Assembly: GCA_021790515.1 (NCBI GenBank)
Contig: JAJYHV010000049.1
Coordinates: 1 to 64,000, forward strand
DNA: 64,000 nucleotides
Origin: Pseudomonadota bacterium
Lineage (GTDB): Bacteria > Pseudomonadota > Gammaproteobacteria > Burkholderiales > Sulfuriferulaceae
Reading direction: 5' to 3'
Position 1 is the stretch's first letter. Every line of letters begins with the position of its first letter. The position numbers and the translations under genes are program-made. Below, piece after piece: positions 36,403 to 56,873 of this stretch. Under the pieces are notes generated by a model. It worked only from the letters and a program-made list of their open reading frames with translations, made no database searches and was not told the DNA's origin.

Positions 36403-37734
36403 TCAGATGCTGATCGGCACGCCAGACAGTCTGTCATATGCTGTCGCCAGTGCCTGGTCATCGCCAACATTGCCGGGAAAAATGACCACCGGCAAATCCG
36501 GATAGCGCGGATGATCAGGTGGACAGCAGACGACGGAACAGCCCGGTAAAATTTGCCCGACCACGCGCGAAGTGCGGAGTGCCAAGCCCGAGCTCAACAC
36601 GTCATTCGATGTAATACCGCCCTTGCTGATCAAAAAGCCCAGGGTCTTTGGCAAGTTGCGCACTACATCCATCAGGAAAGCAGAAACCATCTCGCCAAAC
36701 GCGAGTCGTGTTGTCTGGTCGGCAAAGGTCTTTTCCATGCGACTGGTAAATACTACCGGCGTCTTGCCGGCTGCATGGCTCTGTTCGCACTTTTGGATGA
36801 TTTCCGCAAGCAGTGCTTCACGTTGTGAAGACAGTTGTTCCACATTTACCTCAATGGCTTCAATGCCGGGCATCTTCAGTAGCTGTTCAAGTTGCAAGGT
36901 GGTTTTCCTGACATGCGAACCAACAATCACAGCGCCCGGTTTCCCTCCTCGCACATATCTCGCCATCGCTGCCGCAGCGACCGGTTGCACGGGTAGTTGC
37001 GCCAAGGCGGTGAGCAGGCTGGCTGCACTGCGAAACAAAAATCGCTTACCCTGTCTCGTCGCCTGCCTGAGTTGCGCTGCAAAATGATTCAGGTCGGCCT
37101 GCGTTTCCGCATCCACTACCACACAGACGTTACCCTGTAGCATTAGCAATCGCGGCAAACTGTCGCCACGAACATCTCGCAACTGAAAACGCAATACTTG
37201 CCCGGCAGCAATCCGGCCTTTTGTTTTTTCTTCAACATAATCAGGCAAATAACTATGTCGGTAAGCAAACACCGAATCACGTGCAAATTCGGTTTCGTGC
37301 ACCGGTGTTTCTTTGCCATTCACCAGCAGATAATGCACGCTATCGCGGGTAATGCGCCCGCCCTCGAAAAAAACCGGCACCAGAAAATGTGCGTCGAATG
37401 GTCCCAACTCCTCGGCAATGACATCTGTCTCCACCGGATAGTGGCCACGCAGGGTTGAGTCGGAACGGCTGACCAGAATCGGCATAAAATCACATTCCTC
37501 TTTTTTCAACTCCGCCAACGCCAGCTTGAGGTTGTGACACACTTCACGGGTAATTTCCGCCGCTTGCCTGGCCGCCATGCCGCGCGTGTTGGTCAGTACG
37601 AAGAATAACGGCGATGCGTCCAGCATTGCATCGCGCAAGGTATCCTTATCCCAGCGCGTCAGCAGCAAACAACTGTGCACTGTTTGCGAGCCGGTCGGAT
37701 CATCATCCAGCACGATGATTTTGGTTTCAGACAT
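36403..37734 (-). CDS. DUF1537 / four-carbon acid sugar kinase family protein
   Basis: N-terminal IIVLDDDPTGSQTVHSCLLLT, SRSDSTLRGHYPVE; C-terminal ISKGGITSNDVLSSGL. Confidence 0.88.
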   Translation of the reverse strand: MSETKIIVLDDDPTGSQTVHSCLLLTRWDKDTLRDAMLDASPLFFVLTNTRGMAARQAAEITREVCHNLKLALAELKKEECDFMPILVSRSDSTLRGHYPVETDVIAEELGPFDAHFLVPVFFEGGRITRDSVHYLLVNGKETPVHETEFARDSVFAYRHSYLPDYVEEKTKGRIAAGQVLRFQLRDVRGDSLPRLLMLQGNVCVVVDAETQADLNHFAAQLRQATRQGKRFLFRSAASLLTALAQLPVQPVAAAAMARYVRGGKPGAVIVGSHVRKTTLQLEQLLKMPGIEAIEVNVEQLSSQREALLAEIIQKCEQSHAAGKTPVVFTSRMEKTFADQTTRLAFGEMVSAFLMDVVRNLPKTLGFLISKGGITSNDVLSSGLALRTSRVVGQILPGCSVVCCPPDHPRYPDLPVVIFPGNVGDDQALATAYDRLSGVPISI

Positions 37735-37808: not shown

Positions 37809-40022
37809 TCAAGTTAACAGCGCCTTCACGCGCATGGCCATTGCCTCGGCGGTAAGTCCGTTGAAGTCCATGATTTCGGCTGGACTGGCGGTGGTTTCTC
37901 CACGCTTCCATGCAAAAGTGTCGCGCTTGGGCGCACGGGTACGCAACAATGCGGGCTCCAACACTGCGCTCGGTCCGCCACTGACTGCCAGCATCACGTC
38001 ACCATCAAACAGGGCGTTAAAATGCGCATCGTCCATAAACTTGTTGTCCGGCTCCGACACCGTGCTCCAGGAAACATCGGTCGGACGATACAGACGGCGC
38101 GGATTGACGATCGCCACAATACGCACCTTATAGCCCTCGGCTTCCAGCTTGTCCCTGGTCTCGAATACCGGCAGGAAAATCATGTCACCGGTCACGCCGA
38201 ACACAACGGTACCCTTGCTCCCGCTTTTGCTTTCATAAATGATCGCCGCGCCCTGCTCCATCGCGTGCCGAGCTTCAGCCATGCTCATGTAAACCGGCAA
38301 AGGACTCTTCGAGGCGATGATCACCATGCACTTGTTGAAACTGTTGGTTGCGTATTCGTAAGCCACCTGAATGGCGTTGGCATCGCAGGGGAACAGCGGA
38401 TAGGTATTGCCGTTTCGCATCTGTGCGGCAAAGTAGTTCTCTATCTCAGGACGCTGGTGGGTCCAGCCGTTGCGTCCCTGCTCCAGCGCACCTGCAGTAA
38501 ACATCGTCACGATGGAAGGCGTCTTGCGACGCAGTTCGGCCATCGCCTGTGCCACTGTCTGCACGATAGGCCAGCCGTTGATTGCAAAACTTTCATAAGA
38601 CAGCCATAGCGAACGTGAACCAAACAATGACAACGCCACCGCAAGACCGGCACAGGCATCTTCGTTCAACGGCTCATACACTTGACCCTCAGGCTCCTGA
38701 TTGTAAAGCGGATCAACGGTCGGATGGCGTATTTTCAGCGCATCATTGATATTTTTCATCGCCGACGCTTCGTTGCCGTCGGCGTTGGTCACCACAAAAC
38801 GTTTGTCCTTTGTGCCGACATAAGCTACCAGCGCGCCCATCGCGGTTGCAGGAACCGCTTTTTCGCTTTTCGGGAAATCATGCAACGGCATGTTGCCCAG
38901 TGGCGCCATATCCAGCACATGTTCGGTCACGGCTGTTTTAACGGCCGGGCCACCGCCGGCACGCACAAAGTTCTCGCGCACGATCGACCAGGCTTCGGGG
39001 TTCAGCGCGCGGCGTTTGAGGCCGTCTATCATATGGGCTTTGTCGAGTGTGTCAGCCGGATACAGATTGTGTGATTTTGCGCCCACCGTGTGTACGCCTG
39101 TGCCCTTCAACTGTTTGATGATAAACACGGTCAACGTGCCGCCCAAGGCAGACTTGGCGGCTCTGTCCATACCGGCAAGCACCGCAGCGGCAAACGCAAG
39201 GCGTTGTTTGAGCGAAAAGCGCGAACTGTCCACATACTCACCCGCTTGGTTGGTATCGTCAAAATCCTTGGCGTTGACCAGCACCACTTCTTTGAAACCA
39301 TGGCCTTTCCAGTAAGCGATCATTTCTTCATTGGTGAAACGCGACACCATGGAGTGATGTTCCTGGCTGTAGCCGTTCCAGATCAGCGTAGGCAGAAAGT
39401 TGGTGATCTTGGGATAGGCCGTGTTGAAATGCATCATCGAATTCAGAACATACGGCTCCCCCATGCCGCCGTCACCGATGGTTACCGGGAATAATTTACC
39501 CGGATGCAGCATTGCGCCCGCCATGGCAAAGTGCTGCCCCTGACCCAGCGGCCCGGCAGGTGCCAGCAAGCCGGGGATTGCACCGGACAGGTGACCAAGC
39601 AAACCGTGTTTTTCGCGGAAACGCGCCATCAAGTCATTGACTGTCTTGATACCCATTGCTTCCAGCGAAGTATCGAGAAACATCGCGCTGTAGAAACCAG
39701 GCGCATGGTGACCCACCTCGGTCACAATATTGGTGTGACCCAACATCACCAGTGCAGCATAAGCCTCGGCGCTACTGGCGAAACCGCCCGGGTGTCCCGA
39801 TCCTTTTGAGCCACAGGTTTGCAGCGTCAGATAACGCAGCGCATCGGCCATCAACAGCGTCTGGTACACCGCATCCGGTGCGTTCGGATCACTGATGGCG
39901 GACTTGCCTTCCTGAATGGCAGCCGATTTTGCATGTGTTGAAAAACCTTCCCAGGCTGTACCGAAATGTTGAATACCTTCACAGAACTGCGGAGCTGTCG
40001 CTGTGCTTGTCATTGTGTTCAT
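37809..40022 (-). CDS. Thiamine-diphosphate enzyme, phosphoketolase/transketolase superfamily, reaction unassigned
   Basis: GSKGSGHPGG and AGPLGQG (TK-like), GDGGMGE, WNGY, SYESFAINGW, NGWTHQRPEI, PCDANAIQVAYEYA, KSPLPVYMSMAEA (PK-like). SD AAGGAG before MNTMTSTA. Confidence 0.85.
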   Translation of the reverse strand: MNTMTSTATAPQFCEGIQHFGTAWEGFSTHAKSAAIQEGKSAISDPNAPDAVYQTLLMADALRYLTLQTCGSKGSGHPGGFASSAEAYAALVMLGHTNIVTEVGHHAPGFYSAMFLDTSLEAMGIKTVNDLMARFREKHGLLGHLSGAIPGLLAPAGPLGQGQHFAMAGAMLHPGKLFPVTIGDGGMGEPYVLNSMMHFNTAYPKITNFLPTLIWNGYSQEHHSMVSRFTNEEMIAYWKGHGFKEVVLVNAKDFDDTNQAGEYVDSSRFSLKQRLAFAAAVLAGMDRAAKSALGGTLTVFIIKQLKGTGVHTVGAKSHNLYPADTLDKAHMIDGLKRRALNPEAWSIVRENFVRAGGGPAVKTAVTEHVLDMAPLGNMPLHDFPKSEKAVPATAMGALVAYVGTKDKRFVVTNADGNEASAMKNINDALKIRHPTVDPLYNQEPEGQVYEPLNEDACAGLAVALSLFGSRSLWLSYESFAINGWPIVQTVAQAMAELRRKTPSIVTMFTAGALEQGRNGWTHQRPEIENYFAAQMRNGNTYPLFPCDANAIQVAYEYATNSFNKCMVIIASKSPLPVYMSMAEARHAMEQGAAIIYESKSGSKGTVVFGVTGDMIFLPVFETRDKLEAEGYKVRIVAIVNPRRLYRPTDVSWSTVSEPDNKFMDDAHFNALFDGDVMLAVSGGPSAVLEPALLRTRAPKRDTFAWKRGETTASPAEIMDFNGLTAEAMAMRVKALLT

Positions 40023-40117: not shown

Positions 40118-40153
40118 TTTCACAATGCGTAATCGATTTCACAATGCGAAATA
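40118..40153. promoter_or_regulatory. Tandem near-palindromic 17-mers, putative IclR-type operator
   Basis: ATTTCACAATGCGTAAT (40118-40134) and ATTTCACAATGCGAAAT (40137-40153) in the divergent intergenic region. Confidence 0.5.
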
Positions 40154-40160
40154 TTAGCAA

Positions 40161-40185
40161 TTCGGTCACCGGCCTTCAGGCCGGG
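40161..40185. repeat. REP/IS605-end-like hairpin, copy A
   Basis: GGTCA(CCGGCCTTCAGGCCGG); perfect stem at 40170-40185; the flank AGCAATTCGGTCA is also shared with 57.1 kb. Confidence 0.65.
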
Positions 40186-40224
40186 GTTTTAAACCAGCAA
40201 GGAAACAGGATAAAAAGCAAAACA

Positions 40225-41004
40225 ATGGAAACGTCAAAAATTGACATGCAAGAACCATCCGGGTCAATACAGGTGATCGAACGGCTGGCGCGTTTGCTTG
40301 ACGCCATTGCCTTACACGACAATGACGCCAGTCTGAAAATTCTCTCTGCAGAAACCGGTCTGCATCCTTCCACCGCCTTTCGCATATTGGCCTCCTTGTC
40401 AGAACAGGGTTTTGTCGAGCGCACCGGCAAAGGCAACTATCAACTGGGTGTCAAGTTGATGCAACTGGGCAACCGTGTCAGCAGCAACGTGGACATCCGT
40501 AAAATTGCACTGCCCATTATGGAAAAGCTGCGCGACACCTTGGGTGAAACGGTTAATTTGACCATGCGCGAGGGGGATGAAGTGGTATACATCGAGCGCT
40601 CTGTTGCCAAACGCATGATGAAGGTAGAGCAAGTGATCGGCAGCCGCGCACCGCTGCATGTCACCGCCGTAGGCAAGCTGATGCTCGGCGAAGAAGGTGA
40701 AGCTGCCTGTCTTGGCTATGCCAAACGCAGCAAACTTCCTGCCTACACAGTCAACACGTTCAGCAAAGCAACAGATCTGCTGCAAGAGTGCATGGCGTCC
40801 ATCAAGCGCGGCTATGCGCTTGATAATGAAGAGGCAGAGCTCGAGGTGGGATGCATCGGCACACTGGTGCGCGACGCCAGTGGCCAGGTGGTGGCAGGGT
40901 TGTCGGTGTCAGCTCCCATCGAACGACGGCGCGAGGAATGGATTGCACTCGTCATGGCGGCAGGCAAGCAACTATCACAACAGCTCGGTTATCGCCCTGA
41001 ATAA
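40225..41004 (+). CDS. IclR family transcriptional regulator
   Basis: SIQVIERLARLLDAIALHDNDASLKILSAETGLHPSTAFRILASLSEQGFVER; effector domain AVGKLMLGEEG...GYALDNEEAELEVGCIG. Confidence 0.92.
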   Translation: METSKIDMQEPSGSIQVIERLARLLDAIALHDNDASLKILSAETGLHPSTAFRILASLSEQGFVERTGKGNYQLGVKLMQLGNRVSSNVDIRKIALPIMEKLRDTLGETVNLTMREGDEVVYIERSVAKRMMKVEQVIGSRAPLHVTAVGKLMLGEEGEAACLGYAKRSKLPAYTVNTFSKATDLLQECMASIKRGYALDNEEAELEVGCIGTLVRDASGQVVAGLSVSAPIERRREEWIALVMAAGKQLSQQLGYRPE

Positions 41005-41227: not shown

Positions 41228-42718
41228 ATGCACCCTTCTACACGTGAAATTACGCAGCGTACGCCTGCACAGGAATCACTGATAAAGGAATTGCGGGCGC
41301 TGTTACCTGTAACCGCCGTGTTGACGGATCCTGAAGATCTTCGCCCGTTTGAATGCGACGGGCTCTCTGTCTATCGGCGCCTGCCACTGGTTGTCGTGTT
41401 GCCGGATACCATCGAACAGGTGCAAGCCATCATGCAGTTATGCCACAAACTGAACATAGCCGTCGTGGCACGGGGTACAGGCACCGGTCTCTCCGGTGGT
41501 GCGCTGCCGTTGGGTGATGGCGTGTTGCTGAGCCTGGCCAGATTCAAGCGCATCCTCAATATTGATCCGCTTAACGCCATGGCGACCGTACAACCCGGAG
41601 TACGCAATCTGGCTATCTCGGAAGCTGCTGCCGCGCATGGCATGTACTACGCACCCGACCCCTCCTCGCAAATCGCTTGCACCATCGGCGGCAATGTCGC
41701 GGAAAATTCCGGTGGCGTGCATTGTCTTAAATACGGCCTGACCGTACACAACGTTCTGATGCTGAAGATTATCACCATTGAGGGTGAGTTTCTCACCATC
41801 GGCGCCGAAACCCTCGATGCACCCGGCTATGACGTGCTGGCGCTGATGTCCGGCTCTGAGGGAATGCTGGGCATCATCGTTGAGGTTACCGTCAAGCTGC
41901 TGGCCAGACCGGAACGTGCACAAGTGGTACTGGCAGCTTTTGATGACGTGGTCAAAGCTGGCGAAGCTGTCGGCAGCATTATTGCCGCCGGCATTATTCC
42001 TGCCGGCCTTGAAATGATGGACAGACTGGCCATCCAGGCAGCAGAAGACTTTGCCCATGCCGGCTACCCGCGCCATGCAGAGGCCATTCTGCTGTGCGAA
42101 TTGGACGGCAGCAATGCCGAAGTTTCCGAACACATCATGACGGCATGCAAACTATTGACTGAATGCGGCGCCACCGAAGTGCGCACTGCGACGGATGAGG
42201 CCGAGCGTCAATTGTTGTGGAAAGGACGCAAGTCGGCATTCCCCGCGGTGGGCCGCATTTCGCCAGACTACTACTGTATGGATGGCACCATCCCGCGTCG
42301 CCAGTTGCCGCATGTCCTGAAGCAGATGAGCCAATGGTCAGCCGAATATGGGCTGCCGGTTGCCAATGTATTTCATGCCGGCGACGGCAACCTGCACCCG
42401 CTGATTCTGTTTGATGCCAACAAACCTGGCGAGTTGGCGCGCACCGAGGAATTTGGTCGACGCATTCTGAAACTGTGTGTGGAAGCAGGCGGCACCATCA
42501 CCGGCGAACACGGCGTCGGCATGGAAAAAATCGACCAGATGTGCATCCAGTTTCAAAGCGCAGAACTGAGCCAATTCCACGCGGTGAAAGCCGCCTTTGA
42601 TCCGCTCGGCCTGCTCAATCCCGGCAAAGCCGTGCCCACGCTGCACCGCTGTGCCGAATTCGGAGCGATGCATGTGCACCACGGCGAACTGAGACACCCC
42701 GAACTGGAGAGATTCTGA
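41228..42718 (+). CDS. glcD: Glycolate oxidase subunit GlcD (FAD-linked)
   Basis: VARGTGTGLSGGALPLGDGVLLSLARF; NVFHAGDGNLHPLILFD; TGEHGVGMEK. Confidence 0.93.
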   Translation: MHPSTREITQRTPAQESLIKELRALLPVTAVLTDPEDLRPFECDGLSVYRRLPLVVVLPDTIEQVQAIMQLCHKLNIAVVARGTGTGLSGGALPLGDGVLLSLARFKRILNIDPLNAMATVQPGVRNLAISEAAAAHGMYYAPDPSSQIACTIGGNVAENSGGVHCLKYGLTVHNVLMLKIITIEGEFLTIGAETLDAPGYDVLALMSGSEGMLGIIVEVTVKLLARPERAQVVLAAFDDVVKAGEAVGSIIAAGIIPAGLEMMDRLAIQAAEDFAHAGYPRHAEAILLCELDGSNAEVSEHIMTACKLLTECGATEVRTATDEAERQLLWKGRKSAFPAVGRISPDYYCMDGTIPRRQLPHVLKQMSQWSAEYGLPVANVFHAGDGNLHPLILFDANKPGELARTEEFGRRILKLCVEAGGTITGEHGVGMEKIDQMCIQFQSAELSQFHAVKAAFDPLGLLNPGKAVPTLHRCAEFGAMHVHHGELRHPELERF

Positions 42719-43818
42719 TGACAGAATCACATGACAGTTTGACCCCGCACAACAATGTAGCCAAAGATAACCGTGCTGCACTACAACAGCAGGTAATGGA
42801 CGCAATCGATACGCGAACACCATTGAACATTTGCGGCAACAACACCAAATCTTTTCTGGGCCGCGCCTCGCAAGGGGAAACGCTGTCGCTTGCCGAGCAT
42901 CGTGGCATCATCGAATACGACCCGCGCGAATTGGTGCTTACCGCACGTACCGGCACCCCACTGACCGAGATAGAAGCCACACTGGCCGAAGCCGCTCAGA
43001 TGCTGGCGTTCGAGCCACCCCATTTCGGCGATGGCGCCACACTCGGCGGCACCATCGCCTGCGGACTCTCCGGCCCGCGCCGTCCCTATGCCGGTGCGGC
43101 GCGCGATGCCGTGCTGGGCTGTCAGATCATCAACGGCCGTGGCGAACACCTTCGCTTTGGCGGACAGGTAATGAAAAATGTCGCCGGTTACGATGTGTCA
43201 CGCCTGATGGTGGGCGCCTTCGGCACGTTGGGTGTGCTGCTTGAAGTCAGCCTGAAAGTGCTCCCTCGCCCTGCTGCCAGCCTCACACTGATACAAGAAT
43301 GTCCACAAAATGAAGCCATCCAGCGCATGAGCCATCTGCTGTCACAACCCGTTCCGGTGGATGCTGCCTGTTACCACGCCGGACACTGCTACCTCCGCAT
43401 CGCTGGCAGCGAACAGGCGGTGCGGCACGCGCAAAAACAACTGGGCGGCGAACCCCTCAAGGATTCCATCTCGTTCTGGCATTCGCTGCGCGAACATCAG
43501 CTGCATTTTTTTCTCAGTGACAAACCCTTGTATCGCGTGGTGGTCAAACCAGCCACACCAGCGCTGAATATTGCGGGAGAGTGGCTGCTGGACTGGGGCG
43601 GCGCGCAGCGCTGGCTGGCAAGCGATGAGCCGCAGGCTCTCATTCGCGAACAGGTGAGCGCAACAGGGGGGCACGTCACGCTGTTGCGTGCCGGCGCTCA
43701 GGCTGACGTGGTATTTACCCCACTATCCCCTGCGATGTTGCATCTTCATCAACGCCTGAAAAACAGTTTTGATCCCCATCGAATTTTCAATCCCGATCGC
43801 ATGTACGCAGGTCTTTAA
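42718..43818 (+). CDS. glcE: Glycolate oxidase subunit GlcE (FAD-binding)
   Basis: PPHFGDGATLGGTIACGLSGPRRPYAGAARDAVLGCQIINGRGEHLRFGGQVMKNVAGYDVSRL. Confidence 0.93.
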   Translation: MTESHDSLTPHNNVAKDNRAALQQQVMDAIDTRTPLNICGNNTKSFLGRASQGETLSLAEHRGIIEYDPRELVLTARTGTPLTEIEATLAEAAQMLAFEPPHFGDGATLGGTIACGLSGPRRPYAGAARDAVLGCQIINGRGEHLRFGGQVMKNVAGYDVSRLMVGAFGTLGVLLEVSLKVLPRPAASLTLIQECPQNEAIQRMSHLLSQPVPVDAACYHAGHCYLRIAGSEQAVRHAQKQLGGEPLKDSISFWHSLREHQLHFFLSDKPLYRVVVKPATPALNIAGEWLLDWGGAQRWLASDEPQALIREQVSATGGHVTLLRAGAQADVVFTPLSPAMLHLHQRLKNSFDPHRIFNPDRMYAGL

Positions 43819-43831
43819 AGGCGCTAAAATA

Positions 43832-45067
43832 ATGCAAACTGCTATCCCGCTCAGCCTTCTGCAACAACCGGAAATCGCCGAAGCCGATGCAATCTTGCGT
43901 AGCTGTGTGCACTGCGGTTTCTGCACCGCCACCTGCCCCACCTATCAGCTGCTGGGCTCCGAACTCGACAGCCCGCGTGGTCGCATCTACCTCATCAAGG
44001 AAATGCTGGAAGGCAATACTTCCGGAGAAAAAACCCGACTGCATCTGGATCGATGCCTCACCTGCCGTTCCTGTGAAACCACCTGCCCTTCTGGCGTGCA
44101 ATATGGCCGCCTGATCGAAATCGGCCGCAATGAAATTGAAAAGCACGCGCCACGCTCGTTATGGAGCAGACTGATTCGGCAAGCCATGTTGGCCATCATC
44201 CCTCACACCTCGCGCATGCGCCTCGCCCTGCTGCTAGGCAATCTCAGTCGCCCGCTACTACCCGCCTCATTGCGCCGCAAGCTGCCTCGTTCACGCACCG
44301 CCTTGCCACGTCCGCCGGAACGGCATCAGCGACGCATGCTGGTACTGGAGGGCTGCGTACAGCCGCTCGTCGCACCCTCCACCAACGCTGCCGCCGCACG
44401 CGTACTGGACAAACTCGGCATCAGCCTGCTCAGTGCCGCAACAGCCGGCTGTTGCGGCGCGATGCACCAGCATATGTCTGCCACTGAAAATGCTCGCGAC
44501 ATGATGCGTCGCAACATTGATGCCTGGTGGCCATACGTCGATGGCGGCATCGAGGCCATCGTAACGACCGCCAGCGGCTGCGGTGTCATGGTGAAAGAAT
44601 ACGGCCATGCACTGCAAAACGACCCGGCTTATGCGGCAAAGGCCGCACGCATTTCATCGCTGACACGCGACCTGAGCGAAATATTGCGCAACGAAGACTT
44701 CAGCCGGTTTGCAACAACCGGTAAAGGCAAACGCGTCGCCTGCCAGTCTTCCTGCACCTTACAGCATGGCCAAAAACTGGGCGGCGTGGTAGAAAGAATC
44801 CTGCAACAATGTGGCTACGTTCTGACCCCGGTCGCAGATAGCCATTTGTGTTGCGGGGCAGCAGGTACGTATACCCTGCTGCAACCCGTGCTATCGCAAC
44901 AGCTATTGCAAAACAAATTGAAAGCGCTTGAACAAGGCACGCCTGACGTGATTGTCACCAGCAACATTGGCTGCCAACTACATCTGGAAAGCGCGAGCAC
45001 AATTCCGGTAAGACACTGGATCGAGTTATTGGAAACATGGCTTGAGCCGGAGTTCGGGGATCAATAA
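43832..45067 (+). CDS. glcF: Glycolate oxidase iron-sulfur subunit GlcF
   Basis: CVHCGFCTATCPTYQLLGSELDSPRGRIYLIKEM; CLTCRSCETTCPSGVQYGRL; CCG motifs. Confidence 0.94.
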   Translation: MQTAIPLSLLQQPEIAEADAILRSCVHCGFCTATCPTYQLLGSELDSPRGRIYLIKEMLEGNTSGEKTRLHLDRCLTCRSCETTCPSGVQYGRLIEIGRNEIEKHAPRSLWSRLIRQAMLAIIPHTSRMRLALLLGNLSRPLLPASLRRKLPRSRTALPRPPERHQRRMLVLEGCVQPLVAPSTNAAAARVLDKLGISLLSAATAGCCGAMHQHMSATENARDMMRRNIDAWWPYVDGGIEAIVTTASGCGVMVKEYGHALQNDPAYAAKAARISSLTRDLSEILRNEDFSRFATTGKGKRVACQSSCTLQHGQKLGGVVERILQQCGYVLTPVADSHLCCGAAGTYTLLQPVLSQQLLQNKLKALEQGTPDVIVTSNIGCQLHLESASTIPVRHWIELLETWLEPEFGDQ

Positions 45068-52867: not shown

Positions 52868-52982
52868 CGTGTGGAACACGTTTTAATGGTATAGTTGAGT
52901 AATGCAATGCAACATATTGATATAAATATATTTCATTATACGAAACTCTAATACCCAATCGACCACCCAATCACAGAATAAT

Positions 52983-55730
52983 ATGGAACTCGCTAAAAGT
53001 TTTGAACCACAAACAATCGAATCACGCTGGTATCAGCAATGGGAATCGTCTGGTTATTTTCGCCCCGCACAGGATAACCGGCAGCCAGCCTATTGCATCA
53101 TGCTGCCGCCTCCCAATGTCACCGGCACCCTGCACATGGGGCACGCCTTCCAGCACACCCTGATGGACGCCCTCATTCGCCATCATCGCATGATGGGCAA
53201 TAACACCCTGTGGCAACCCGGTACCGATCATGCGGGTATCGCCACCCAGATCGTGGTCGAGCGTCAATTGGAGAGTCAGGGACTTTCTCGCCACGACCTT
53301 GGTCGCGCTGCCTTCATTGAAAAAGTATGGCAATGGAAAGGACAATCCGGTTCCACCATCACCACCCAGATGCGGCGTCTCGGCACATCATGCGATTGGG
53401 AACGTGAACGATTTACCATGGACGAAGGGCTATCCAAAGCTGTTACCGAAGTGTTCGTGCGCCTGCACCGCGAAGGCTTGATCTACCGTGGTCAACGCCT
53501 GGTCAACTGGGATCCAGTCTTGGGCACAGCGGTTTCCGATCTCGAAGTCATCGCCAGCGAAGAAGACGGATTTTTGTGGCATATCCTGTACGCCATCGAC
53601 GGAGAAAAGGGGTTTGTCGAAGTCGCCACCACCCGTCCAGAAACCCTGTTTGGTGATGTGGCAGTAGCGGTTCACCCCGACGACGAACGCTACCGACACC
53701 TGATTGGCCGCACAGTGCGCATCCCGGTGGCCGAACGCAGTATTCCGGTCATCGCCGACACCTATGTTGACCCAAGCTTCGGCACCGGCATTGTCAAAAT
53801 CACGCCGGCACACGACTTCAACGATTACGCCGTGGGCGAACGGCATCACCTTGCACCCATCGCCATCATGACACCCGATGCGCGCCTGAACGAACGGTGT
53901 CCCGCCGACTATCAAGGACTGGACCGTTATGTGGCACGGGAAAAGCTCATTGCCGCATTACAGGCGCAGGGACAATTGGCCGCGACCAAACCACACAAAT
54001 TGATGGTGCCGCGCGGTGACCGCAGCCAGGCGGTCATCGAACCCTTGCTCACGGAACAATGGTTCGTCGCTACCAAGGGACTTGCCGAACGGGCGCTGAA
54101 TGCAGTAACGAGCGGTGAACTGCGTTTCGTGCCGGAAAACTGGACCACCACCTACCGTCAGTGGCTGGAAAATATTCAGGATTGGTGTATTTCCCGCCAG
54201 TTGTGGTGGGGACACCAGATTCCCGCCTGGTATGACGAGGATGGCCATGTTTATGTTGCTCACACCGAAGCAGAAGCACGCCAACAGGCTGGCGGCAAAC
54301 CGCTGCGCCGTGACGAAGATGTACTCGACACCTGGTTCTCCTCTGCCCTGTGGCCATTTTCAACGCTGGGCTGGCCGGACAAGACGCCAGAACTGGACCA
54401 TTTCCTGCCCGGTGCCGTACTGGTAACAGGCTTCGACATCATCTTTTTCTGGGTTGCCCGCATGGTGATGATGTCACTGCACTTCACCGGCAAGGTTCCC
54501 TTCCGGGAAGTTTATGTCACCGGATTGGTTCGCGACGCCCATGGCGATAAAATGTCCAAATCCAAAGGCAATGTCATCGACCCGCTGGATTTGATTGACG
54601 GCATCAGTCTGGACGCCCTGATTACCAAGCGCACTACCGGCATGATGAATCCCAAACAGGCCGAACGCATTGCCGCTCAGACACGCAAAGATTATCCACA
54701 CGGTTTCACGCCCGTCGGCACTGACGCGCTGCGTTTTACTTTTGCCAGCCTCGCCACCCATGGTCGCGATATCAAGTTCGATTTGCAACGCGCCGACGGC
54801 TACCGCAACTTTTGTAACAAACTGTGGAACGCCACCCGTTTCGTCCTCATGAACTGTGCCGGACAAGATACCGGCATCGATGAAACCCTGCCGATAGAAC
54901 GTAGCTTTGCCGATCGCTGGATCATTGGCCATCTGCAACAAACCGAGCAAGAAATCACGCAAGCATTCATCGAATACCGCTTCGACATGGTTGCCCGCCA
55001 CCTGTATCAATTTATCTGGGATGATTATTGCGACTGGTATCTCGAACTGGCCAAAGTACAATTACAACACGGCAATGCTGCCCAGCACCGCGCCACCCGG
55101 CGCACACTGGTTCGCGTACTGGAAACGGCCTTGCGGCTTGCGCATCCGCTCATCCCGTTCATCACGGAAGAATTATGGCAACATATCGCGCCACTATGCG
55201 GAAAACAGGAGAAAAGCATCATGCTGCAACCTTGGCCTCAAGCCAACCTTGCCGCAATTGATACTCAAGCTGATCAGGACATGGCATTGCTCATGCAATT
55301 CGTGGGGACGATACGTACCTTGCGCAGCAGCATGGGAATTTCTCCCGCGCAAAAAATAGCGCTCATCATCGCCGGAAACCCGGCACCCCTTGCCGTGTTA
55401 CATACCAGCATCATCGCGCTGGCAAAACTCGACAGCCTGACCTTGCAAGAACAGCTTCCTGCCAGCAATGCCCCTGTTTCCGTTGTGGGAGAATGGCAGC
55501 TTATGCCAGACATTCGCATCGACCGGGCAACAGAAATCGCGCGACTGGACAAGGAAATCGCCCGCCTGCAAAGCGAAATCGACAAGTGTACCAATAAACT
55601 CGACAATGCAGCATTCACGGCACGCGCACCAGCAGCGGTGGTCGAACAAGAACAGCAACGTTTGCAACAATTTCGCGACACCCTGGAAAAACTGCTGCCG
55701 CAACGGGAACAGATGGAACAAAGCGAATAA
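52983..55730 (+). CDS. valS: Valyl-tRNA synthetase
   Basis: [31 protein letters not shown] (HIGH) and [14 protein letters not shown]. Confidence 0.97.
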
Positions 55731-55769
55731 ATCAAAGCGAACAAGCGGGAGTCGGCAAGCAACTGCCCC

Positions 55770-56873
55770 ATGAAACAATACGCAATATTTTGTACCGTCA
55801 TCGATAACTACGGTGATGCCGCCGTCAGTTGGCGATTGGCACGCCAACTCGCCAACGAACACGGCCTGTCTGTCCGCCTGTGGATTGACGACCTGACGTC
55901 CCTTGCCGCCCTCGAACCGGACGTTGCCCCCAACTCACCCGCGCAAAATGTGGCAGGCGTCGACATCTACCACTGGCGCGAACCCATCGACCCTCACTAC
56001 TTGAGTGCAGTCGATACCATCATTGCCGCTTTTGGCTGCCGCCTGCCTACAACGTATCTGACCGCCATGGCTACCATGCGACCAGCACCGCGCTGGATCA
56101 ATCTGGAATACCTGAGCGCAGAACCCTGGATAGAATCTTGTCATTTATTGCCATCCCCACACCCACAACTGCCCATCACGCAAACATTTGTCTTTCCCGG
56201 TTTTACCGAAAACACGGGTGGATTGTTGCGCGAACACGACCTCATCCAGCGCCGCGATGCATTTCAAAACAACCCTGCCGCACAACACGAATTCTGGCAG
56301 CAACTGGACTGTTACCCGCCACAAAACGCCATCAAGATTTCCTTGTTTGGTTATGCCCATGCGCCCTTATACGACACCTTGCGCGCCTGGACACACACTA
56401 CCCAACCTGTTTGCTGCCTCATTCCACATGGCCCGTTGGCAGAGCAAGCACAAACCCTGCCCGCATGGATAAAACGAACACTGCATCTGCAAATTTTGCC
56501 ATTCATGAGTCAAACCGATTACGACCGCCTGCTATGGGCTTGTGACGCCAATTTTGTACGCGGTGAAGATTCACTGGTACGCGCACTATGGGCCGGCCGG
56601 CCGCTGATTTGGCACATCTACCCCCAGAGCGAAAATACGCACGCCGCCAAACTGGATGCCTTCCTCAACCGTCAATTGGCACATGCCGACACAAACACGA
56701 ACAACATCGTCCGCAGTTTTGCCCAGACATGGAATGGATTGCAGACCGATCCGAATGCAGCACTCGCCTGGCTGCGGCATTTACCCTCACTGCAGGCATT
56801 GCAACGATCCTGGAGCGATGCGCTTTCTGCCCAGACGGATCTGGTTACCCGACTAGAAGCCTGTCGGACTTGA
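55770..56873 (+). CDS. earP: EF-P arginine rhamnosyltransferase EarP (DUF2331)
   Basis: DNYGDAAVSWRLARQLA; RGEDSLVRALWAGRPLIWHIYPQSENTHAAKLDAFL. Confidence 0.9.
   Translation: MKQYAIFCTVIDNYGDAAVSWRLARQLANEHGLSVRLWIDDLTSLAALEPDVAPNSPAQNVAGVDIYHWREPIDPHYLSAVDTIIAAFGCRLPTTYLTAMATMRPAPRWINLEYLSAEPWIESCHLLPSPHPQLPITQTFVFPGFTENTGGLLREHDLIQRRDAFQNNPAAQHEFWQQLDCYPPQNAIKISLFGYAHAPLYDTLRAWTHTTQPVCCLIPHGPLAEQAQTLPAWIKRTLHLQILPFMSQTDYDRLLWACDANFVRGEDSLVRALWAGRPLIWHIYPQSENTHAAKLDAFLNRQLAHADTNTNNIVRSFAQTWNGLQTDPNAALAWLRHLPSLQALQRSWSDALSAQTDLVTRLEACRT

Follow-up and report, generated by a model that had tools for sequence, protein, structure and literature searches.

The window analysed here, a stretch of 64,000 nucleotides, comes from a 2.0 Mb, Gallionella-like assembly that is 96% complete. 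Positions 37809..40022 on the minus strand encode, in an unbroken open reading frame, a 737-aa ThDP-dependent enzyme of the transketolase/phosphoketolase superfamily, here denoted XFPL. The next gene, which begins 74 bp downstream of XFPL (36403..37734, minus strand, 443 aa), encodes a DUF1537 sugar-acid kinase, probably an oxotetronate 4-kinase if the inferred substrate is correct. Divergently from XFPL lies the gene for an IclR-family regulator (40225..41004, plus strand; the start at 40225 was picked from the sequence and 40213 is also open), followed on the plus strand by glcD (41228..42718), glcE (42718..43818) and glcF (43832..45067), which encode glycolate oxidase subunits, the last one being the iron-sulphur subunit. 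GlcE and GlcF score above the respective NCBIfam cut-offs (512 bits vs 284 and 624.5 vs 333), and GlcD falls just below its own (846.5 vs 897). Between XFPL and iclR, we predicted a palindromic operator, TTTCACAATGCGAAA (40137..40151, plus strand), which is probably the site of the IclR regulator, and a second, imperfect copy, TTTCACAATGCGTAA (40118..40132, plus strand), 19 bp from the first. The DNA separating the operators from the start of iclR contains a GC-rich inverted repeat, CCGGCCTTCAGGCCGG, with GGTTTT after it (40170-40195); this element of the iclR leader has the appearance of a terminator or attenuator.

The original prediction described XFPL as an enzyme with mixed transketolase and phosphoketolase motifs, and translation confirmed all the motifs it quoted, namely GHPG (residues 76-79), GPLGQG (157-162) and, in the phosphoketolase layout, WNGY (215-218), SYESF (475-479), NGWTHQRPEI (518-527), PCDANAIQVAYEYA (545-558) and KSPLPVYMSMAEA (572-584). 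Because most of the motif residues are invariant among 49 homologues, with identity down to 74%, these motifs are not a chance occurrence. The further claim that GHPG and GPLGQG replace phosphoketolase motifs was only partly upheld: both are present, but GHPG is not the equivalent of the phosphoketolase GPGHG. In the alignment, GHPG instead pairs with the His in phosphoketolase GHWGTTPG (H64; H26 in transketolase), the equivalent of GPGHG (H97) is EVGHHAPG (H105), and IPGLLAPAGPLGQG is the counterpart of phosphoketolase TPGSIHEGGELGY. When compared with the XFP_N, XFP, XFP_C and transketolase families of Pfam, as had been proposed, XFPL matched XFP (44.9 bits) and XFP_N (37.9 bits, a partial match to model positions 78-242 of 364) above cut-off and XFP_C below it (20.7 bits vs 23.4), with no match to Transketolase_N at E ≤ 1e-3. 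It is also far under the cut-off of every NCBIfam phosphoketolase and transketolase model (best scores 102.6 bits vs 962 and 39.8 vs 575, respectively). Because the existing models score so far below every cut-off, XFPL needs a name of its own even if its reaction differs from the one proposed below. The host genome encodes a canonical phosphoketolase, on another contig, as well as a canonical transketolase, and therefore XFPL replaces neither enzyme there.

In an unrooted maximum-likelihood tree, XFPL, the phosphoketolases (XFP) and the transketolases (TK) form three separate groups, each monophyletic and fully supported (100/99 for XFPL and 100/100 for XFP), on stems of 5.8, 7.4 and 8.6 changes per column, respectively; XFPL falls outside the phosphoketolase clade and does not nest inside the transketolases either. 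Profile comparison places XFPL closer to both XFP (E 4e-20) and TK (E 7e-10) than these two are to one another (E 1.5e-3). XFPL almost certainly represents a third clade, distinct from phosphoketolase and transketolase, and the tree and the profile comparison both support the earlier view that the protein belongs to a clade of its own for which both canonical names are unsafe. Scanning 84,980 species genomes yielded 207 stretches that encode relatives, of which the best 80 are the public loci analysed here. These best 80 of the 207 relatives are 74-91% identical to XFPL and for the most part encoded in MAGs of Gallionella, Sideroxydans, Thiobacillus, Sulfuriferula, Nitrotoga, Mariprofundus and sulphur-oxidising Gammaproteobacteria. 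An even sample of Pseudomonadota contained XFPL in only 3 of 399 genomes; the ordinary phosphoketolases of this sample are approximately 25% identical to XFPL, and intermediates between XFPL and XFP at 30-60% identity were found neither in the 399 genomes nor in 61 relatives. Searches for viral and plasmid copies of XFPL returned none, the plasmid matches all being ordinary phosphoketolases with 20-25% identity.

Comparison with the first-shell residues listed for phosphoketolase (PMC10547157) showed that H77, H105, H144, G157, H318, E454, Y476, Q515, N518 and H522 of XFPL, equivalent in this order to phosphoketolase H64, H97, H142, G155, H320, E479, Y501, Q546, N549 and H553, are invariant in all 49 XFPL sequences, as is K572 (phosphoketolase K605). 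In phosphoketolase, dehydration has been assigned to H97, H142 and G155 and phosphate binding to H64, Y501 and N549 (PMC6435721). Given that Y476, Q515, N518 and K572 are shared with XFP in 49 of the 49 sequences, where TK has F, L, D and R, the first shell follows phosphoketolase even though the loops are TK-like. The mixed-motif description thus stands insofar as TK-like loops are set in a phosphoketolase-like frame, but the first shell resembles that of phosphoketolase more closely than the motifs imply. Two first-shell changes, H548 to R517 and Q321 to N319, are common to all 49 XFPL; the clade also departs from phosphoketolase at D547, replaced by G, and H106 and R524 are XFPL-specific. 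The changes at R517, N319, H106 and R524 appear to be those that truly bear on specificity, and R517, which would add a positive charge beside the phosphoketolase phosphate site, could accommodate a small carboxylate, for example glyoxylate. The ThDP motif GDG...N and the activating Glu are present (D184, N216 and E454, all invariant in XFPL), and an equivalent of TK H100 is missing. With its catalytic His, Glu and ThDP residues intact, XFPL is, as judged from the alignment, a catalytically complete ThDP enzyme, and the donor half of its active site looks competent. R358 and H461, which we take to be the phosphate-site residues of TK, are not retained, so that the binding of sugar phosphates by XFPL can only be presumed. 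Alignments conflict at XFPL residues 415-424, the region in which the counterpart of phosphoketolase S440/R442 was sought. The AlphaFold model of XFPL, built without cofactor or dimer partner (pLDDT 77.7, lower at the active-site loops), adopts the three-domain fold of the ThDP transketolase/phosphoketolase superfamily, and a Foldseek search seeded with it retrieved phosphoketolases as the best matches and transketolases next (E to 2.6e-26, TM 0.53-0.68).

The association of XFPL with the kinase is strict: among the best 80 of the 207 loci, a DUF1537 kinase gene is located immediately 3' of XFPL in 70 of the 70 that could be tested, and the XFPL-linked kinases are strongly conserved (69-85% identity). 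The kinase in the window contains both SBD_N and NBD_C (PF07005, 193.7 bits, and PF17042, 136.7 bits), and all eight significant PDB matches obtained by Foldseek with its AlphaFold model (pLDDT 87.6) are DUF1537 structures, only 16-22% identical to it in sequence. Against the curated models it scores far under every cut-off, the best being D-threonate kinase (72.6 of 450 bits), and the OtnK model is absent among its matches in that search; the protein may function as OtnK without being a recognised member of that family. In Candidatus Nitrotoga, a second DUF1537 kinase is encoded near the XFPL module (L077:13810-15138 and L079:12029-13387).

The regulator gene is as constant as the kinase gene, being divergent to XFPL in all 67 testable loci among the best 80 of 207. 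The top NCBIfam match of the regulator is BhcR, below cut-off (155.5 of 350). In Paracoccus, the related BhcR responds to glyoxylate, which abolishes its DNA binding (PMC11323563), and by analogy the regulator linked to XFPL is probably glyoxylate-responsive and controls the divergent promoter. The palindrome is kept in the XFPL/iclR promoter of 76 of these 80 loci, with diverged flanking DNA, the chance expectation at the threshold used being 0.4 occurrences per 64 kb. Further copies of the palindrome precede a lutB-like gene (L035:4711), a TRAP dctP gene (L058:8852 and 9038) and an aldehyde dehydrogenase gene (L021:16953), hinting at a small regulon. Another operator-like site in the window, at 52931 upstream of the valyl-tRNA synthetase gene, is probably due to chance; there, valS is followed by earP, encoding the EF-P rhamnosyltransferase (52983-56873).

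Glycolate oxidation genes are the other usual companions of XFPL. Of the 35 loci with full flanks, 26 encode all components of a GlcDEF-like or LutABC-like oxidase within 8 kb, with no complete oxidase set nearby in the remaining 9; LutABC may oxidise lactate instead of glycolate. In each of 14 XFPL-bearing relatives, a GlcD with at least 63% identity is encoded on the same contig, a few kb from XFPL, and of 18 congeners, 12 have both XFPL and a close GlcD and 6 have neither (Fisher 5e-5, kinship ignored). As 5 of the 6 XFPL-negative congeners have Rubisco, the distribution of XFPL follows that of glycolate oxidation better than that of Rubisco alone. Neighbours in some loci include a GlcG/HbpS-like protein, malate synthase G and ABC or TRAP uptake systems; acetate kinase and phosphotransacetylase were not seen among the recurrent neighbours. 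A gene of the PF01116 aldolase family follows the kinase gene at a distance of 4-14 nt in 4 of the 80 loci (L034, L035, L041 and L050); two of these proteins were compared with the fructose-bisphosphate aldolase models and fell short of all cut-offs. Three loci (L020, L034 and L035) have tartronate-semialdehyde reductase (TSR) genes above the curated cut-off in the vicinity of the module; the dehydrogenase-like neighbours reach 368 bits with TSR, above cut-off, and 193 of 350 with L-threonate dehydrogenase.

The gene content of XFPL carriers was surveyed in two sets, 50 genomes reached through the loci, several of them incomplete MAGs, and the 14 XFPL-bearing relatives. Rubisco is encoded in 45 of the 50 and in 14 of the 14, and glyoxylate carboligase (Gcl, TIGR01504) was not found above cut-off in a single genome of either set. 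With Gcl in 0 of 50 and malate synthase in 18 of 50 (absent from 32), most XFPL genomes are devoid of both well-known glyoxylate sinks. TSR genes are present in 20 of the 50 genomes, none of which has Gcl, and this leaves room for a carboligase-like reaction; in 19 of the 50, no TSR homologue was detected even at E ≤ 1e-40. In six Gcl-free genomes (G449, G451, G456, G458, G469 and G476), TSR is located no more than approximately 2-3 kb from malate synthase. A PF00596 protein, encoded in 40 of the 50 genomes, was considered as an OtnC-type decarboxylase and rejected: in none of the six inspected loci does it lie beside the module, and in four of them (L099, L100, L102 and L104) this class II aldolase adjoins the gene for methylthioribose-1-phosphate isomerase (mtnA) and/or mtnP-like genes, an arrangement suggesting the DHAP-shunt type of methylthioadenosine salvage.

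The constant pairing with the kinase, together with the usual presence of glycolate oxidation genes, implies that XFPL probably functions in an undescribed glycolate-salvage route of CO2-fixing bacteria that oxidise iron and sulphur, and the strictness of this pairing suggests that XFPL and its kinase work on successive metabolites. Very probably, the two form a module that consumes glyoxylate or glycolate, a view favoured by the association with Rubisco and glycolate oxidase and by the absence of Gcl. Transfer of the transketolase type to an aldehyde yields a ketose, so that with glyoxylate as the acceptor the product would be 3-oxotetronate. The latter is a known DUF1537 substrate, the 4-phosphate of which is decarboxylated to DHAP (PMC12540250), and we favour it because it is the sole product of transketolase-type transfer known to be used by this kinase family (PMC12540250). 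In the route that we propose, glycolate would be oxidised to glyoxylate by GlcDEF or LutABC; XFPL would cleave a Calvin-cycle ketose phosphate, e.g., xylulose 5-phosphate, retaining the C2 ketol unit on ThDP, and pass this unit to glyoxylate, giving 3-oxotetronate and glyceraldehyde 3-phosphate; the DUF1537 kinase would convert 3-oxotetronate to 3-oxotetronate 4-phosphate; and decarboxylation would produce DHAP, which would re-enter the Calvin cycle. The net reaction would be Xu5P + glyoxylate + ATP -> GAP + DHAP + CO2, with the IclR regulator, probably sensing glyoxylate, governing the divergent promoter; we infer every one of these reactions as well as the effector. The 3-oxotetronate hypothesis was framed before the family of the decarboxylase was checked. 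Since the decarboxylation step of a related route is catalysed by 2-OtnC, a member of PF01116 (PMC12540250), the PF01116 gene behind the kinase in four loci counts in favour of the proposal, as do R517, the new charge at the H548 site, and the intact catalytic residues. Several observations count against it: the phosphoketolase dehydration and phosphate-site residues that XFPL retains would suit acetyl-phosphate formation, the putative decarboxylase adjoins the module in just those four of 80 loci, the kinase is far under every curated model, LutABC may serve lactate, and roughly a quarter of the full-flank loci are without a complete oxidase set. On balance, the whole explanation, in which the third-clade XFPL and its kinase consume glyoxylate from the adjacent glycolate oxidase via 3-oxotetronate, is one that we advance with somewhat less than even confidence; ketol transfer to glyoxylate as the exact reaction is tentative to a slightly greater degree, and more tentative again is the suggestion that the module takes the place of the glycerate pathway and the malate cycle in chemolithoautotrophs with a Calvin cycle, as a natural route of glyoxylate assimilation and phosphoglycolate salvage. 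A search of the open-access literature found no description of such a route.

The main rival to glyoxylate transfer is acetyl-phosphate-forming chemistry: XFPL could be a true phosphoketolase with an altered donor, possibly an acid-bearing or short ketose, that dehydrates the ThDP adduct to acetyl phosphate, the kinase acting on a side or upstream metabolite. The conservation of Y476, Q515, N518, K572, H144 and H105 throughout XFPL, the first four of which set it apart from TK, would fit this function, and DHA and erythrulose are among the short ketoses that phosphoketolases also cleave (PMC10547157). Yet the same genome already encodes a canonical phosphoketolase, neither acetate kinase nor phosphotransacetylase was seen among the recurrent neighbours, and such chemistry would leave the strict links to a sugar-acid kinase and to glycolate oxidase unexplained, so that we regard it as unlikely. 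An ordinary transketolase, or another enzyme handling xylulose 5-phosphate, with cosmetic motif drift is hardly credible: GHPG and GPLGQG are indeed TK-like loops, but the protein belongs to a separate clade with a long stem, coexists with distinct canonical TK and XFP genes and departs from TK in at least four first-shell positions. The same applies to the label xylulose-5-phosphate 3-epimerase, which the original prediction attributed to some databases and considered a poor fit to a ThDP fold: no epimerase family was matched in Pfam or NCBIfam, and the titles and abstracts of papers using this phrase gave no support for a link to the protein family.

If the module degraded tetronates (threonate or erythronate), a dehydrogenase-like gene, the kinase and the PF01116 protein would make up an LtnD-OtnK-OtnC path, with XFPL splitting an oxo-acid into glyoxylate and a C2 unit. 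The kinase, PF01116 and NAD_binding_2 genes do resemble the three-step threonate pathway (PMC12540250), and some modules adjoin ABC or TRAP uptake systems, but the dehydrogenase-like genes, which score as TSR and not as L-threonate dehydrogenase, occur in only three loci, whereas XFPL is invariant, and the distribution tracks Rubisco and glycolate oxidase; this interpretation seems quite unlikely. If XFPL were instead an analogue of glyoxylate carboligase, two molecules of glyoxylate would be condensed to tartronate semialdehyde, which TSR would reduce, and the DUF1537 protein would serve as the glycerate kinase. The TSR genes near the module in three loci, and their presence in 20 genomes of which none encodes Gcl, agree with such a scheme, which is nevertheless very unlikely, considering the 19 genomes without a TSR homologue and the many in which TSR is found beside malate synthase and not beside XFPL. 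Furthermore, Gcl is devoid of the ThDP-activating Glu, which XFPL retains as E454, and we know of no DUF1537 glycerate kinase.

The operon context, which was not used in the earlier reading of the motifs, carries most of the functional information, and the conserved module of enzyme, kinase and regulator, linked to glycolate oxidation in chemolithoautotrophs that use the Calvin cycle, is a more important result than the clade itself. The reaction of Rubisco with oxygen gives 2-phosphoglycolate, the disposal of which is unsettled in many chemolithoautotrophs (PMC7486775, PMC7895386), and the module is a compact candidate for its salvage in Gallionella, Sideroxydans, Nitrotoga, Mariprofundus, Thiobacillus and their relatives, most of which lack Gcl and malate synthase. 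If the glyoxylate route is correct, a textbook enzyme superfamily would gain a third functional clade, and two or three genes would become available for the engineering of photorespiration bypasses.

Among characterised enzymes, XFP (Bifidobacterium 3ahc/3ai7 and cyanobacterial 8io8) provides the best sequence and fold matches of XFPL, which keeps at least 10 of the 13 first-shell residues, including the equivalents of H64, H97, H142, H320, E479, Y501, Q546, N549 and H553; however, XFPL is only approximately 22% identical over the profile alignment, matches XFP_C below cut-off, carries R, N and G at H548, Q321 and D547, respectively, and has TK-like loops in addition to forming a clade of its own. 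With TK, it shares the GHPG, GPLGQG and PCD motifs, the ThDP fold and the catalytic His and Glu, but differs in having Y/Q/N/K in place of F/L/D/R at four first-shell sites and no H100 equivalent, and in its separate clade. The partner kinase has the fold and both Pfam domains of OtnK, DtnK and OiaK (the 3-oxotetronate, D-threonate and 3-oxo-isoapionate kinases), although it is far below all curated cut-offs and shares only 16-22% identity with its PDB relatives. The glycerate pathway and malate cycle of Cupriavidus necator (PMC7486775) likewise involve glycolate oxidase in a Rubisco-bearing chemolithoautotroph that needs a glyoxylate sink, whereas Gcl is missing from 50 of the 50 XFPL genomes and malate synthase from 32. 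In the beta-hydroxyaspartate cycle of Paracoccus, an IclR-family regulator, BhcR, is also divergent to a glyoxylate-assimilation operon (PMC11323563), but no Bhc enzyme was recognised beside the XFPL module and the regulator does not reach the cut-off for BhcR. The L-threonate pathway (LtnD/2-OtnK/2-OtnC; PMC12540250) similarly combines a DUF1537 kinase with a PF01116 protein on the way to DHAP, the difference being that in the proposed route the source of the oxotetronate would be XFPL rather than threonate dehydrogenase.
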